Source of the DNA: Chloroflexota bacterium
GTDB taxonomy: Bacteria; Chloroflexota; Limnocylindria; Limnocylindrales; CSP1-4
NCBI GenBank assembly: GCA_003171065.1
Contig: PMXQ01000083.1
Location: forward strand, 1 to 36,522
Length of the DNA: 36,522 nucleotides
Reading direction: 5' to 3'
This document shows, piece by piece, positions 20,238 through 27,204 of the stretch (position 1 is the stretch's first letter; each line of letters starts with the position of its first letter). The notes below the pieces were generated by a model. It did no database searches. It had not been told where the DNA came from and worked only from the letters and a program-made list of their open reading frames with translations. Position numbers and translations under genes: made by a program.

Positions 20238-21194
<957 letters not shown>

Positions 21195-21534: not shown

Positions 21535-22608
21535 CTACTCGGGCAGGATCGGGAGCTGGGCCTCGAGGTGGCCCTCGCGGATTCGTGCGGGGTAGTAGCG
21601 CAGGCGGGTGATCCGGGTCAGGCGGCGCGCCTCGAGCTTCCTGTTCGGCGGCTCGGGTTTGGGCTCCGCGCCGGCCGGTGACCACGACGAGTGGTAGTTG
21701 CCATCGGCGTCGAGCCCGCCGGTCGTTGGCATCTGGACCGTCTCGCCGGTGGCCAGGTCGAAGCGTCCCTCGTGCAACGGGCACGCCACGACGCAGCCAT
21801 CAAGGTCCCCGACGGAGAGTGGCGCCGCCATGTGCGGGCAGCGGTCGTCCGTCACGACGATGCCGTCGGGCGTCCAGGCGACCAGCAGATCCAGGCCCGC
21901 CAGCGTGACCCGGCGCATCGACCCGGGCGCCAGCTGCGCAATCGCGGCGATCTGCACGAACGGGGCCGCTCGCGTGCCGGAAGCCCGCAGCTCGCGGGGC
22001 GTCGCGGCGAGCGGAATGCTCGCCGAAACCGAGTCGGCTGCCAGGACGTCTGACAGATCCTCCGGCGTCATCGAGTACATGACCGCGTCCGTCGCTTGAG
22101 CGTCCCGATCCAACGTCCAGTTGCGGGCGAGGCCTTCGAAGCGGAAGCCGGCCTTCTCGGCGACCGCCTGGGACGCCACGTTGCCCGGCAGCGTCCACAA
22201 GGCCAGGCGTTCGATGTCGATGTGCTCGAAACCCCACCGCGTCACCAGGCGCAGGGCCCTGGACGCCACTCCTCGCCGGCGAGCCTCCGGGGCGACCAGA
22301 TAGCCGACGGCATGCAGCCGTGGGTTCGGTCCCAGGTGGAGCCCGATCGAGCCGATGAACCGGTCGGTGGCGGCGTCCGCGATCGCGAACTCGTAGCCTG
22401 TTCCATCGTGCCAGGCCTGGAGGGTCATCAGGATGAAGCGTCGGGCATCGGCCTCGGTGTAGGGCACCGGGATGATCGGGATCCAGCGCTGGATCTCCGG
22501 GTCCTGACAGGCGACTGTGACGACCGGCGCGTCATCCGCTCGGAAGGCACGCAACGTGACGACGCCGTCACTGAGCGGCGGATTGGGCGGAGCCAGCTTC
22601 TCGGGCAT
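21535..22608 (-). CDS. Fusion of a GNAT acetyltransferase and a Rieske [2Fe-2S] domain
   Basis: 357 residues in one uninterrupted frame. Residues 1-180 are a RimJ/RimL-type GNAT domain (LSDGVVTLRAF, VGYLVAPEARRRGVASRALR with the acetyl-CoA loop at 109-115, NVASQAVAEKAGFRFEG). After a linker of about 30 residues, 216-300 form a Rieske ferredoxin domain with C257-P-H259 and C276-P-L-H279, the complete CxH...CxxH ligand set, followed by EGRFDLATGE as in Rieske ferredoxins. A C-terminal tail of about 50 residues follows. I know of no established protein with this pair of domains. It might be a redox-regulated acetyltransferase or an accidental fusion. ATG 22608 has no ribosome binding site; CATACT lies six nt upstream. 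The frame is also open further 5', through a hairpin and to an ATG at 22767. Confidence 0.88.
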   Translation of the reverse strand: MPEKLAPPNPPLSDGVVTLRAFRADDAPVVTVACQDPEIQRWIPIIPVPYTEADARRFILMTLQAWHDGTGYEFAIADAATDRFIGSIGLHLGPNPRLHAVGYLVAPEARRRGVASRALRLVTRWGFEHIDIERLALWTLPGNVASQAVAEKAGFRFEGLARNWTLDRDAQATDAVMYSMTPEDLSDVLAADSVSASIPLAATPRELRASGTRAAPFVQIAAIAQLAPGSMRRVTLAGLDLLVAWTPDGIVVTDDRCPHMAAPLSVGDLDGCVVACPLHEGRFDLATGETVQMPTTGGLDADGNYHSSWSPAGAEPKPEPPNRKLEARRLTRITRLRYYPARIREGHLEAQLPILPE

Positions 22609-22614
22609 GGGCCA

Positions 22615-22620
22615 AGTATG
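22615..22620 (-). promoter_or_regulatory. Candidate -10 box of the GNAT-Rieske gene
   Basis: Read on the minus strand, CATACT is followed by six bases and ATG 22608. It lies downstream of the terminator-like hairpin at 22679-22710, so the gene may have its own promoter and a leaderless message. Confidence 0.35.
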
Positions 22621-22710: not shown

Positions 22711-22773
22711 GAGGAGGATGCACAGCTTTCGCCTGACGACAATGCCCGAAATGGGTCCGTCCCCCATACGGAC
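22679..22773 (-). ncRNA. Candidate small RNA or structured leader of about 95 nt
   Basis: Three hairpins follow each other on the minus strand: GTCCGT 22773-22768 with ACGGAC 22760-22755; TTTCG 22751-22747 with CGAAA 22731-22727; and the 11-bp terminator stem 22710-22679. A TAGACT box (22785-22780) ends seven nt before the first hairpin. Together these give promoter, folded body and terminator. No known RNA family (6S, SRP, tmRNA, RNase P or a riboswitch I can recall) is matched. Alternatives: an attenuating leader of the GNAT-Rieske gene, since an ATG at 22767 opens a frame that runs into that gene, or chance GC-rich pairing. Confidence 0.4.
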
Positions 22774-22785: not shown

Positions 22786-22897
22786 GCCCGAAGCGAGACT
22801 TTCTGCATCGCCTTTGCGGCATCGCCGTGTTGGATGCATGATCCTAAACGGCGGCTCCCCGTCGCCTTCTCGCGGTATCGCGACGCTGGAGGATGCA

Positions 22898-23851
22898 ATG
22901 CGCTTCGCGCTAATGCTGGAGCCCCAGCAGGGTCTAACCTACCTGGAGCAGCTGGAGATCGCCAGGCTGGCCGAAAGGCTCGGCTTCGAGGCTCTGTTTC
23001 GTTCGGACCACTACCGCAGCTTCCCTGGTCCGGCGGATCGACCGACGACCGACGCCTGGGCGGTCCTGGCGGGCATCGCCCGCGAAACCACGACCATTCG
23101 CCTCGGCACGCTGGTCTCGCCGGTCACCTTCCGCCATCCTGGGTCGTTCGCCAAAGTCGTGACCACGGTCGACGAGATGAGCGGCGGCCGCATCGAAGTC
23201 GGCGTCGGGGCCGGTTGGAACGACCTGGAGCACAGCCAGCTCGGCCTGCCCTTTCCCGACATCGTCAAACGGGCCGACCTGATGGAGGACGAGCTGCAGA
23301 TACTCCACGGCCTGTGGGAGGAGCCGGACGGCTGGTCGTTCGTGGGCAGGCAGGTTTCGGTTATGGATGCCGGCTTCCATCCCAAGCCGGTCCAGAGGCC
23401 CCGCCCGCCGATCATCGTCGGCGGCGAGGGCAGACCCCGATCGCTGCGTCTGGCCGCCCGCTACGCCGACGAGTACAACATGTCGGGCGCCGACCCGGCC
23501 GAGTGCGGGGAGAAGTTCGCCCTGCTGAACGACGAGTGCCGCAAGATCGGCCGCGATCCGGCGACGATGCGCCGGTCTGTGATGGCCGGCTTTCTCATCG
23601 GTGTAGATCAGGCCGAGCTCGAGCGGCGCGTGCACGACCTGCTGGCCATGGTCGGAGATTCGGGAGCCGACGCCTCGGCCTTGCTGGAGGAGCACCGGTC
23701 GCGCTGGATCGTCGGCACGCCCGATCAGGCCCGGGCCATGGCCGCTCGCTTTGCGGCGACGGGCGCTGACCGGATCATGCTCCAGGACATGCTGCCGCGC
23801 GACCACGGCATGATCGAGCTGGCCGCCCGCGAGTTGATCGGCAGAGTCTGA
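22898..23851 (+). CDS. Luciferase-like, probably F420-dependent oxidoreductase
   Basis: 317 residues of the bacterial luciferase (LLM) TIM-barrel superfamily. Typical pieces are FALMLEPQQGLTYLEQLEIA, FRSDHY, TTTIRLGTLVSPVTFRHPG, EMSGGRIEVGVGAGWNDLEH and RPPIIVGGEGRPRSLRLAARYADEYN. The pattern agrees with the Rv1855c-like group (TIGR03560) of coenzyme-F420-dependent enzymes, although FMN use cannot be excluded from sequence alone. The start ATG 22898 has GGAGG five nt upstream; the longer open frame from 22814 lacks such a site. The substrate is unknown. No F420 biosynthesis gene is in the window. Confidence 0.9.
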   Translation: MRFALMLEPQQGLTYLEQLEIARLAERLGFEALFRSDHYRSFPGPADRPTTDAWAVLAGIARETTTIRLGTLVSPVTFRHPGSFAKVVTTVDEMSGGRIEVGVGAGWNDLEHSQLGLPFPDIVKRADLMEDELQILHGLWEEPDGWSFVGRQVSVMDAGFHPKPVQRPRPPIIVGGEGRPRSLRLAARYADEYNMSGADPAECGEKFALLNDECRKIGRDPATMRRSVMAGFLIGVDQAELERRVHDLLAMVGDSGADASALLEEHRSRWIVGTPDQARAMAARFAATGADRIMLQDMLPRDHGMIELAARELIGRV

Positions 23852-23947: not shown

Positions 23948-24397
23948 CTACTTCCGGAGCTTGCCCTTCGAGGCGATGCTGGCCCGCGCCCTGGCGCTGC
24001 TGGCGCGGCGCCGCGGGATGAGCCCGATCCGGCGCGGCGGCCAGTAGCGGAACCAGGCTCGCCCCACCAGCGCGTCGAGCGGCACCGGGCCGTAGTGTCG
24101 CGAATCGACGGAGTGGCCGCCGCCGTCGCCGAGCAGCCACGCCTCGTCGCCGAGCTTGACGTACTCGGTTCCGGCCAGCACGACGTCGCCGGGACCGGCC
24201 GCCACCCGCTTGATGGCGAGCTGCCCGGTCCCGGGCTGGCGTACCACGACGACGCTCCCGCGCCGGGGCCAACGGCGTGGCGCGGGATCCAGGAACAACC
24301 AATCGCCCGGCTGGAGGGCCGGCGTCATGCTCTCCTCAGCCACGGCCACGCGCCACGTCCCGCGTCGGAGCCGGCGCCAGCCTTCGGCGAAGGGCAT
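23948..24397 (-). CDS. sodX: S26-family peptidase, probable nickel superoxide dismutase maturation protease
   Basis: 149 residues of the signal-peptidase (S26) fold. It carries the catalytic serine in EESMTPALQPGD (S23), the general-base lysine in LAIKRVAAGPGD (K63) and the terminal box DSRHYGPVPLDALVGRAWFRYWP. It has no N-terminal membrane anchor, unlike LepB, and ends in a basic Arg/Lys/Ala tail. It directly follows sodN (48 nt gap, same strand), where the maturation protease that trims the NiSOD propeptide is usually encoded. Cutting before the HCDVPC hook would free the His needed as a nickel ligand. The symbol rests on that context. The start ATG 24397 has no clear ribosome binding site. 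Confidence 0.85.
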   Translation of the reverse strand: MPFAEGWRRLRRGTWRVAVAEESMTPALQPGDWLFLDPAPRRWPRRGSVVVVRQPGTGQLAIKRVAAGPGDVVLAGTEYVKLGDEAWLLGDGGGHSVDSRHYGPVPLDALVGRAWFRYWPPRRIGLIPRRRASSARARASIASKGKLRK

Positions 24398-24445
24398 TGG
24401 ATGGGGCTCGGTGACGACGGCTATTGGGGGCGGCTCTCCGATGGG

Positions 24446-24865
24446 CTACTTCTTGGTCGACCAGAAGATATCGGAGAATTCCTTGACCGCGGCTTCGAGG
24501 TCGGACGCGGCCTGAGCGTCGATGTTCTGCTTGTTCTTGCTGGCGAGCTTGAGGATCTTCCAGGTTCGATCGTGGATGTCCGGGTAGCGCTCCAGGTGCT
24601 CGGGCTTGAAGTAGTCGCTCCAGATGACCTGGATCTCGTGCTTCACTATCTCGGCGTGCTGCTCCTTGACGGCGACACAGCGAACGAACTTCTGGCGATC
24701 CGCCTCGGTTGGGTTCTCCTTGGGCAGCTGGCCGAGGAGCTCGACCATGCGGGCCACGGTTCGGGCGGCCAGCTCGGCCTGGTGCGGGTCGTAGATGCCG
24801 CACGGAACGTCGCAGTGGGCGTAGACGGTGGTGGTGGGCTTCAGCCAGCGTGTTACCAGGGACAT
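24446..24865 (-). CDS. sodN: Nickel-containing superoxide dismutase
   Basis: 139 residues. The nickel hook HCDVPCGIYDP occupies residues 17-27 and matches the invariant H-C-D-x-P-C-G-x-Y of NiSOD, with His17 becoming residue 1 after removal of the 16-residue propeptide (ends VYA). C18 and C22 supply the thiolate ligands. The following four-helix part (ARTVARMVELLGQL, RCVAVKEQHAEIVKHEIQVI, WKILKLASKN) is as expected. The enzyme disproportionates superoxide; it has no leader for export and is likely cytoplasmic or released. ATG 24865 follows a strong GGGAGGAGA. The protease gene comes next in the same direction. NiSOD is known from actinobacteria, cyanobacteria and some Chloroflexota. Confidence 0.96.
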   Translation of the reverse strand: MSLVTRWLKPTTTVYAHCDVPCGIYDPHQAELAARTVARMVELLGQLPKENPTEADRQKFVRCVAVKEQHAEIVKHEIQVIWSDYFKPEHLERYPDIHDRTWKILKLASKNKQNIDAQAASDLEAAVKEFSDIFWSTKK

Positions 24866-25219
24866 CGGGTCTCCTCCCAGCATGGGACGGCGGGCGAGGC
24901 GGGGACCAGCAGGCAGCTTCGCTGGGCCTCGGCCGTGTGCAAGTGTTGAGGGCTCCGCGCGCCCTGTCAACCGGGCGGCCGTTCCGATCCGGACGCCGCG
25001 TCAAGGCCGATCGGCCCGCCGATCCGGCTGCCGGGACAATCGGAACCGGGGGCATGATTCGGGCCTCCGGCCTCCACGGAAAACCCACACTTCCTGCATA
25101 AGGTTTTCAGTCTGGCTACAGATTGCAGACCCAGCATTTGTGTTGATCCGGCCGCGCATACGGCGTGGCCGGGCACGGAGATCACCGAGCCGCAGAAGCC
25201 TGGGAGCAACCTCTACTCG
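24866..25219. other. Divergent intergenic region with an AT-richer promoter-like patch
   Basis: 354 bases between sodN (minus) and the ferric-reductase-like gene (plus). A relatively AT-rich stretch at about 25078-25145, with several TTT, TTG and TAC words, stands out from the GC-rich surroundings and probably holds the promoter of the reductase gene, perhaps with regulator sites. No ORF is supported and no box could be fixed with confidence. Confidence 0.45.
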
Positions 25220-26686
25220 ATGACCGGCCCGACCCCTGCCCTCAACGCAAATCCCTCGACGGCGAGCGCCGGCACGGCGCCCGTGGCTGCGAACCCTTCC
25301 GGGAGCGTGGCCTACTCGGCTCCCGCCCGGAAAGTTCGCCGCGTCCCGGTGCCTCGGGTCTGGCCGATCAAGGACTACGACATCTACGCCCTGCTGGGCG
25401 GGAACGCCTTCGTGATCCTGGCCATGTGGGTCCGCCACGGCGGTCTGAACGAGCTGGCGACGTCCGCAGGCATCGTGACCGCCATCGGTGAGCTCGCGGC
25501 TCTGTACGGCACGTACCTGGTCCTGATCCAGCTCGTGCTCATGTCGCGCAGCCCCTGGCTCGACCAGGTCTTCGGCCAGGACAGGCTCGTCGCCGCCCAC
25601 CGCTGGGTCGGCTTCAGCGCGATCTGGCTGCTCGTCGCCCACTTCGTCTTCACGACCGTCGGCTATGGCATGGCCGACGGCAGCGGCCCGATCAACGAGG
25701 CGATCAATCTCCTCACGGTCTATCCCTACGTCCTGTGGTCCGGCATCGGGCTGGTCCTGTTCATCCTCGTCGGCATCACGTCCGTGCGGGCGGCTCGTCG
25801 GATGGCCTCATACGAAACCTGGTACGCAATCCACCTCTACACGTACCTCGCCATCGCCCTCAGCTTCCTGCACCAGCTCTTCGTCGGCGTCGACTTCACC
25901 ACCGATCCGGTTGCGCGCATTTACTGGATTGGCCTGTACGTCCTGGCCTTCGGGCTGCTGTTCGTCTTCCGCTTCGGCCAGCCGATCTCGGTCTCCTGGC
26001 GCCATCGGCTCCGCGTCGCCAACGTCGTCAAGGAAGGTCCGGACGTCGTGTCCATCTATCTCACCGGCAGGGAGCTCGACCAGCTCCCGGTCCGGGCCGG
26101 CCAGTGGTTCCGGCTTCGGTTCATGACGTCGAACGGCTGGTGGCGGGCCCATCCGTTCTCGATCTCGGCGGCCCCCAACGGCAAGTACTTGCGCTTCACG
26201 GTCAAGAACCTGGGCGACTACACCAGGCTCCTGCAGCACGTCCGCGTCGGAACATCGGTCTACGTCGAGGGCCCGTACGGCGTCTTCACCGGCGCCACCC
26301 GGACCAAACCGCGCGTTCTGTTCATCGCCGGTGGGATCGGCATCACGCCGCTCCGGGCGCTCCTCGAGGAGCTCCCGGCCGCGCGCGGGAACCTGACGCT
26401 GATCTATCGGGCGAGCCACGAGAACGAGGTGGTCTTCCGCAACGAGCTGGACGAGCTGGCCGGCCTGCGGGGAGCCACGGTCCATTACCTGGTCGGTCGC
26501 CGCGGTTCCAGGGAGATGCCGTCCGATCCACTCGATCCGAGGGCGCTTCGCCGCCTGGTTCCGGACGTCTACGACCGTGACATCTACGTCTGCGGGCCGG
26601 CCGGGATGATGGAGCGCGTCCTGAGCGGCCTTCACTGGCTGCGCATCGCCGAGTCGCAGATCCACTACGAACGCTTCACCTTCTGA
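25220..26686 (+). CDS. Ferric-reductase-like transmembrane protein with FAD/NAD(P)H domain
   Basis: 488 residues. A disordered N terminus of about 50 residues precedes six or so membrane helices (about 55-255) with two pairs of haem-ligand histidines: H127 and H141 in one helix, H205 and H218 in another, as in FRE/NOX-type bis-haem proteins. The cytoplasmic FNR-like part follows: FAD motif HPFSIS (311-316), a phosphate-binding loop with GDYTR, GGIGITPLRALLEE (371 onward), the YRASHENE loop and the C-terminal DIYVCGPAGMM and ERFTF end. Electrons would pass from NAD(P)H to FAD, across the membrane through the haems, to an acceptor outside. The next gene encodes an FMN-binding protein 11 nt downstream, the likely acceptor. 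The ribosome binding site is weak (GGGAG, 14 nt before ATG). Confidence 0.92.
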   Translation: MTGPTPALNANPSTASAGTAPVAANPSGSVAYSAPARKVRRVPVPRVWPIKDYDIYALLGGNAFVILAMWVRHGGLNELATSAGIVTAIGELAALYGTYLVLIQLVLMSRSPWLDQVFGQDRLVAAHRWVGFSAIWLLVAHFVFTTVGYGMADGSGPINEAINLLTVYPYVLWSGIGLVLFILVGITSVRAARRMASYETWYAIHLYTYLAIALSFLHQLFVGVDFTTDPVARIYWIGLYVLAFGLLFVFRFGQPISVSWRHRLRVANVVKEGPDVVSIYLTGRELDQLPVRAGQWFRLRFMTSNGWWRAHPFSISAAPNGKYLRFTVKNLGDYTRLLQHVRVGTSVYVEGPYGVFTGATRTKPRVLFIAGGIGITPLRALLEELPAARGNLTLIYRASHENEVVFRNELDELAGLRGATVHYLVGRRGSREMPSDPLDPRALRRLVPDVYDRDIYVCGPAGMMERVLSGLHWLRIAESQIHYERFTF

Positions 26687-26697
26687 GGACGGCACGA

Positions 26698-27204
26698 ATG
26701 AACTTCCTTCCCAAACGCGGAGTGATCGGAGGGGCCCTGACCGCCCTCGCGCTGGCCCTGATCCTCAGCTTCAAGACGCCCAACGTCTCCGGGCTGATCA
26801 CCGTCAACTCGAACGGCGGAACCTCCGTCAACTCGAACGGCGGAACCTCCGTCAACTCGAGCGGCACCACGGGGCAGACGCAGCAGGGCTCCGGCTCCGG
26901 CTCGGGCTCTGGGATCGGGCAGAGGAGCACCTACACCGGACAGCTGACCGGGCAGGCCGTCCAAATCCCCTTCGGCACCGTCCAGGTCCAGGTGACGATG
27001 CAGAACGGCAAGATCACCGACGTGCAGACCCTTCAGCTGCCCGGCGGCCAGTTCCGCTCGCAGCAGATCGGCCAGTACGCGGCGCCCCAGCTGCGCAGCG
27101 AGGTGCTGGCGGCCCAGAGCGCCCAGGTCAACACGATCTCGGGCGCGACCTACACCAGCGAGGGCTACCTGCAGTCGGTTCAGTCGGCTCTCGACCAGGC
27201 GTAG
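26698..27204 (+). CDS. Exported FMN-binding-domain protein, probable covalent flavin carrier
   Basis: 168 residues. An N-terminal signal or anchor segment (VIGGALTALALALILSF, about 9-25) leads into a Ser/Asn/Gly/Thr-rich linker made of repeated VNSNGGTS units (36-60). The C-terminal 90 residues are an FMN-binding domain (VQIPFGTVQVQVTM ... ITDVQTLQLPGG ... NTISGATYTSEGYLQSVQ). SGAT (S148-T151) is the flavinylation motif whose Thr carries FMN attached by ApbE; no apbE is seen here. It follows the haem/flavin reductase by 11 nt with its own GAGGAC site, so the two form a likely electron chain from cytoplasmic NAD(P)H to an outside flavin. The final acceptor is unknown. Confidence 0.9.
   Translation: MNFLPKRGVIGGALTALALALILSFKTPNVSGLITVNSNGGTSVNSNGGTSVNSSGTTGQTQQGSGSGSGSGIGQRSTYTGQLTGQAVQIPFGTVQVQVTMQNGKITDVQTLQLPGGQFRSQQIGQYAAPQLRSEVLAAQSAQVNTISGATYTSEGYLQSVQSALDQA
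26801..26848 (+). repeat. 24-bp perfect tandem repeat in the linker of the FMN-binding protein
   Basis: 26801-26824 and 26825-26848 are identical, and a third copy with changes runs on to about 26869. It encodes the repeated eight residues VNSNGGTS in the flexible linker and keeps the frame. Confidence 0.92.

Follow-up and report, generated by a model that had tools for sequence, protein, structure and literature searches.

A GNAT acetyltransferase and a Rieske ferredoxin domain joined in one gene in a narrow lineage of Chloroflexota

GNAT acetyltransferases and Rieske iron-sulfur domains are both well known, and among the genomes searched here their combination was met only in two genera. 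The locus that carries the combination poses the question of what job a Rieske ferredoxin performs where no Rieske oxygenase is found, and whether its tie to a GNAT domain matters. The DNA analyzed, hereafter the window, is a stretch of 36,522 nucleotides that forms one contig (C111, PMXQ01000083.1) of a Chloroflexota draft genome of 3.0 Mb, which is 88% complete and distributed over 151 contigs.

The fusion gene occupies positions 21535..22608 on the minus strand, a strand that the earlier note on this DNA did not give, and encodes 357 amino acids in a single open frame from an ATG at 22608 to a stop at 21535-21537. The list of open reading frames also offers a longer form of 410 amino acids that starts at an ATG at 22767, but this start is less favored, as the ATG at 22608 is common to the relatives and has a CATACT hexamer just 5' of it. 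Residues 17-156 (22141..22560, minus strand) match the Pfam family Acetyltransf_3 over profile positions 2-138 of 138 (E 1.3e-29; 104.1 bits against a cut-off of 25.4), and the modeled GNAT fold extends to residue ~195. Within this domain lies R110-x-x-G113-x-A115 (22264..22281, minus strand), an R-x-x-G-x-A motif that we take to be the acetyl-CoA pyrophosphate loop and whose three named residues are present in all 17 aligned fused sequences. A variable linker at residues 188-203 (22000..22047, minus strand) is followed by the Rieske core at residues 219-297 (21718..21954, minus strand; Pfam Rieske, E 4.4e-15, 55.8 bits against a cut-off of 20.3). The four predicted [2Fe-2S] ligands C257, H259, C276 and H279, arranged as CxH-x16-CxxH (21772..21840, minus strand), are conserved in every one of the 51 relatives aligned (17 fused and 34 stand-alone). 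An insertion of ~38 residues, at approximately residues 298-335 (approximate limits 21604..21717, minus strand), lies ahead of the final strands of this fold; it includes the stretch EARRLTR and is conserved in stand-alone Rieske relatives too. The earlier note had read a complete GNAT domain and these same four ligands in one frame, and the Pfam matches and individual residues agree with it.

By the same note, relatives in which the two domains are separate genes at this place would have refuted the reading and pointed to a local frame fusion or an assembly error. Within genus g1, to which the source genome belongs, every apparent split is accounted for by an NN, a contig end or a missing locus. 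Of the 21 genus g1 genomes (the source genome included), 16 have both domains in an uninterrupted frame, which is complete in 15 and in the other (G003) runs from residue 39 with an NN directly before it. In G005 and G010 the frame is broken exactly at a two-base NN, and in G006 the two halves, each in frame, are split between contigs, the GNAT half running out at one contig end and the Rieske half starting from the end of a second contig. The contig of G019 stops 35 bases past the neighboring LOG gene, which was not found in G008; the fusion locus is not assembled in either genome. No unfused copy was seen in any of the 21 genomes, and the fusion agrees among assemblies from different projects. 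With gaps explaining the exceptions, a local frame fusion or assembly error is rejected, and the GNAT half and the complete Rieske domain, with a flexible stretch between them, are confirmed as one real gene in this group of uncultured soil Chloroflexota. The draft of G018 carries two distinct fused copies (C200 and C210), which share 80% and 73% identity with the fusion protein of the window; this draft has 6% contamination, and the two copies represent either a strain mixture or a duplication.

Beyond genus g1, the fusion is also found in genus g20, at 56-57% identity, in a single genome (G080) that was fetched twice (L031 and L075). A class-wide search of 177 genomes confined the fusion to genera g1 and g20, and a 400-genome sample of the phylum gave no further fusion, with other families showing only separate GNAT or Rieske matches. 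In the family (107 genomes), matches at E 1e-15 or better occur in 25 of 27 genera and, as counted from the search rows, the Rieske part is matched alone in 23 of those 25. None of 197 matching plasmid records and neither of two matching phage records covers 80% of the query. The GNAT-Rieske fusion is therefore restricted, among the genomes searched, to one genus plus one sister genus; the whole-genome searches covered Chloroflexota, and the rarity of the fusion holds for that phylum's genomes. A literature search pairing Rieske with GNAT or acetyltransferase found no such fused protein, and the portion of PMC2922099 that describes operons with a separate Rieske gene does not mention one; none of the terms looked for occurs in PMC13212565. 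The class, phylum and literature searches thus support the earlier note in its view that the combination is without a characterized precedent. Additionally, the source genome encodes a stand-alone paralog of the GNAT half (G000:C26:6433-6948; 47% identical), and similar paralogs are found across the family.

A single frame may nevertheless give two proteins if an internal start yields a separate Rieske protein, and we examined the expression signals with this alternative in mind. The CATACT hexamer (22615..22620, minus strand) ends 6 nt 5' of the ATG, and the same hexamer lies 6-7 nt 5' of the GNAT ATG in 15 of 16 genus g1 sequences. L071 has CATAAT, preceding an ATG 9 nt upstream, and the g20 locus L075 has GATACT. 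CATACT is likely the -10 element of a leaderless transcript; leaderless mRNAs in which a -10 element adjoins the open reading frame are described in PMC12340547. The pattern TANNNT occurs 4-9 nt before the in-frame start in 45 of 61 stand-alone Rieske loci (L080-L140) versus 0.75% in shuffled sequences, which suggests leaderless transcription in this Chloroflexota family. Inside the fused gene, a TANNNT followed by a start is found in only 2 of 16 cases, so that expression of the Rieske half most likely relies on the start of the GNAT half. One of the two (L072, TANNNT-GTG) does lie close to the beginning of the Rieske half, and ATG codons are frequent at the last GNAT strand, as expected if two proteins are made; but the promoter-like internal start is not shared, and the common internal ATGs are absent from L071 and L075. 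As no candidate is common to the fused genes, an internal start for a separate Rieske protein was rejected, and we consider it hardly credible that the fusion is an artefact of assembly or a source of two proteins.

Where the fusion came from can be approached through its stand-alone relatives. The stand-alone Rieske proteins of the family (e.g. L104, L120 and L134) are orthologous to the fused form, with ~48-67% identity in the Rieske part, and share with it the ~38-residue insertion and the neighboring LOG, LLM and SodN genes. Unlike the fusion, they are ~160 amino acids long, have their own TANNNT before the start and MarR and MFS genes upstream, and are without a GNAT domain. Named genomes were scanned with patterns specific for this Rieske family, taking the best 80 of 86 relatives. 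Of the 61 stand-alone loci so obtained, 52 have a co-directional MFS efflux-type gene (PF07690) upstream, and four of the nine without it have less than 1.8 kb of upstream sequence. A MarR gene often precedes the MFS gene, and the block SodN, S26-type peptidase, SIS, LLM, MarR, MFS, Rieske, LOG is widely kept. An operon with the MFS gene as the ancestral mode of Rieske expression is a weakened idea, because a TANNNT of its own precedes the start of the stand-alone Rieske gene. A GNAT gene adjoining the stand-alone Rieske gene was sought in the same 61 loci and gave one weak, distant match near the end of L081 (29.5% over 105 amino acids), in a search whose control matched 18 of 19 fused-lineage loci.

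L075 retains the MFS gene directly upstream of the GNAT-Rieske gene, an arrangement that reads as an intermediate state between a stand-alone Rieske gene behind the pump and the fusion alone. No MFS gene was seen in the other 18 fused-lineage loci, two of which (L079 and L073) have little upstream sequence. The gene order in L075 suggests that a GNAT gene landed downstream of the MFS pump gene and ahead of the Rieske gene, where it would have taken over expression of the Rieske gene as the latter's own promoter was lost; the pump and its MarR regulator would subsequently have been lost in genus g1. From these comparisons, the fusion looks like a single insertion of a GNAT gene before an old Rieske gene, with later loss of the pump. 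In the Rieske tree, all 17 fused sequences fall on one side of a branch with support 90/69, a branch that is not starred. In the GNAT tree the fused sequences do not form one clade in the best tree, although their monophyly is not rejected (p-AU 0.18), and a single origin is not firmly established, as the GNAT tree leaves the fused sequences ununited. With the stand-alone gene behind the pump, the pump with the fusion, and the fusion alone all represented, the origin of a domain fusion is directly readable from these loci.

The next question is whether the two halves work as one machine. The earlier note had suggested acetylation that responds to redox or oxygen, which would imply that GNAT activity changes with the oxidation state of the [2Fe-2S] cluster or with its loss, such that acetylation follows oxygen, superoxide or redox poise. 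All four ligands are kept in 17 of 17 fused sequences, in keeping with such gating, but the link between the halves does not look like part of a switch. Median dN/dS values over 120 pairs from 16 genus g1 sequences are 0.15 for the GNAT half, 0.58 for the linker and 0.17 for the Rieske half, and by this measure both halves are under purifying selection and the linker much less so. The linker also varies from 16 to 38 residues over 17 sequences, its length being taken as the printed segment minus 18 fixed positions. An AlphaFold2 model of the full fusion, built with a 51-row alignment, has a mean pLDDT of 88.5 and a pTM of 0.59, so that the joint geometry is not confidently predicted. A structure search with this whole model returned only GNAT chains, and the Rieske half was therefore modeled separately (mean pLDDT 94.5, pTM 0.88). 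The GNAT half best matches Mycobacterium smegmatis RimJ (6c30; Z 22.3, rmsd 2.3, 188 aligned), with further close matches to Vibrio cholerae 2fck and Bacillus anthracis 3fbu (Z about 22). The Rieske half matches the ferredoxin of naphthalene dioxygenase (2qpz; Z 16.0, rmsd 1.4, 102 aligned), and model residues 18-157 span the 102 aligned residues of this 103-residue protein, revealing the insertion. A linker that evolves fast and spans 16-38 residues speaks more for two separately folding modules held by a tether than for a rigid redox switch, and the redox-responsive acetylation of the earlier note is possible but unsupported, the variable linker and the pTM of 0.59 leaning against tight coupling.

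Thirteen positions of the Rieske half are near-fixed in the fused sequences and rare in the stand-alone ones (e.g. W245, R344 and I354) and could mark a docking face. Two of the thirteen are shared by all 17 fused sequences and 11 have a deviating fused row, which is the g20 sequence at 10 of the 11 and L070 at the other (R205). Because the deviation lies in the g20 sequence, these positions mark genus g1 and not the fusion itself, and they give no clear evidence of an interface.

If the Rieske half is an electron carrier, the nature of its partner becomes important. The ring-hydroxylating oxygenase alpha subunit (PF00848) was found in none of 16 genus g1 genomes examined, and the same search matched 8 of 9 control genomes of a neighboring family (f2). 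A BphA4-type reductase (Reductase_C) was detected in 1 of 21 genus g1 genomes, the source genome not being that one. The classical dioxygenase-ferredoxin job is not supported in genus g1 by these counts, and the Rieske half is probably not such a ferredoxin. The diiron oxygenase family PF02332 matched 0 of 21 genus g1 genomes, and the control genomes likewise gave no match. The source genome has one other Rieske domain, directly after a SufD-like gene (C14, L178 11-1824), in a small protein whose gene overlaps the end of the SufD-like gene. Most genus g1 genomes have two Rieske matches (G016 has three, G018 four, G010 and G019 one each, and G008 none), and the second match in most is of a size like this small SufD-linked protein.

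The absence of the usual electron-transfer partners leaves room for a sensing role of the Rieske half, which is possible and would suit redox gating. In a second alternative, an enzyme that receives an electron from the Rieske half acts on the substrate of the GNAT half, and the fusion channels that substrate between the two reactions. The nearest fold of the Rieske half, that of the dioxygenase ferredoxins, is in keeping with electron delivery, as is the persistent adjacency of a divergent luciferase-like (LLM) flavoenzyme gene (22889..23851, plus strand, start approximate; PF00296, E 1.7e-49), which is kept beside the Rieske gene in most loci. Such a two-step modification is nonetheless distinctly unlikely, given a genus without ring-hydroxylating oxygenase and almost without the matching reductase, and loci in genus g1 in which no same-strand partner gene for the fusion is present.

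Redox-related neighbors have been a further reason to think of gating. Besides the LLM flavoenzyme, they comprise a nickel superoxide dismutase (PF09055) with an adjoining S26-type peptidase gene (23948-24970, minus strand), the latter probably its processing enzyme, and an ArsC-like protein. On the other side of the fusion lies a convergent gene of the LOG or 'possible lysine decarboxylase' family (20238..21194, plus strand; PF03641, E 1.6e-31), which occupies the same place in stand-alone Rieske loci. Most of these neighbors are as old as the stand-alone Rieske gene and so give no argument for coupling, and the Rieske protein is free-standing in 23 genera. With these points added to the linker and the joint geometry, redox gating is in our judgment unlikely. 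If it were true that the cluster gates the GNAT half, however, this would be a new route for oxygen or redox control of acetylation. Equally doubtful is a broader version, a new class in which an oxygenase-free Rieske protein has been captured as a regulatory or electron-supplying half and acetylation follows cluster oxidation in soil Chloroflexota living near anoxia. Farther along the window, a ferric-reductase-like membrane flavoprotein is followed by an FMN_bind protein (25220-27204); among the loci compared, both of these gene clusters occur only in the fused lineage.

At the other extreme, the fusion may be a neutral accident, tolerated without gain while both halves keep their former jobs. 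Its limitation to two genera and the relaxed linker would fit, but the lack of an unfused copy in all 21 genus g1 genomes speaks against it, and we think it improbable. A fusion kept throughout a genus may have been selected for coupling, which would count against two independent modules. We favor, with a probability of about 0.6, a true lineage-restricted fusion of two independent modules on a tether. Read from one start, a RimJ/RimL-type GNAT (residues 1 to ~187) would be tied by a flexible linker (188-203) to a complete Rieske ferredoxin (204-357). The GNAT half would acetylate an amine, either a protein N-terminus or a small molecule, using acetyl-CoA, and the Rieske half would carry or sense single electrons with a partner other than a Rieske oxygenase; the tether would give 1:1 production and proximity rather than switching.

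Each half has well-characterized relatives. RimJ/RimL-type GNATs (6c30, 2fck and PA3944, 6edd) have the fold of fusion residues 1-193 and likewise the R-x-x-G-x-A loop, but their solved chains of 166-213 residues are GNAT alone, whereas the fusion adds ~160 residues of Rieske ferredoxin. No NCBIfam equivalog reaches its cut-off for the fusion protein, which scores 20.0 of 190 bits for RimJ (S5-alanine) and 19.2 of 184 bits for the L7/L12-serine enzyme, far below the cut-off in both cases. Dioxygenase Rieske ferredoxins (2qpz, BphA3 2e4q and CarAc 1vck) share the CxH...CxxH ligands, and their fold is covered almost entirely (102 of 103 residues); in contrast to them, the Rieske half of the fusion has the ~38-residue insertion, sits behind a GNAT domain, and occurs in a genus nearly all of whose genomes are without the oxygenase or BphA4-type reductase of the dioxygenase systems. 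Elp3 likewise couples a GNAT domain to an iron-sulfur module, there a radical-SAM domain with a [4Fe-4S] cluster. No Pfam match to a radical-SAM domain was found in the fusion up to E 0.1, and the likeness between Elp3 and the fusion is that each combines a GNAT fold and an iron-sulfur module within one protein.
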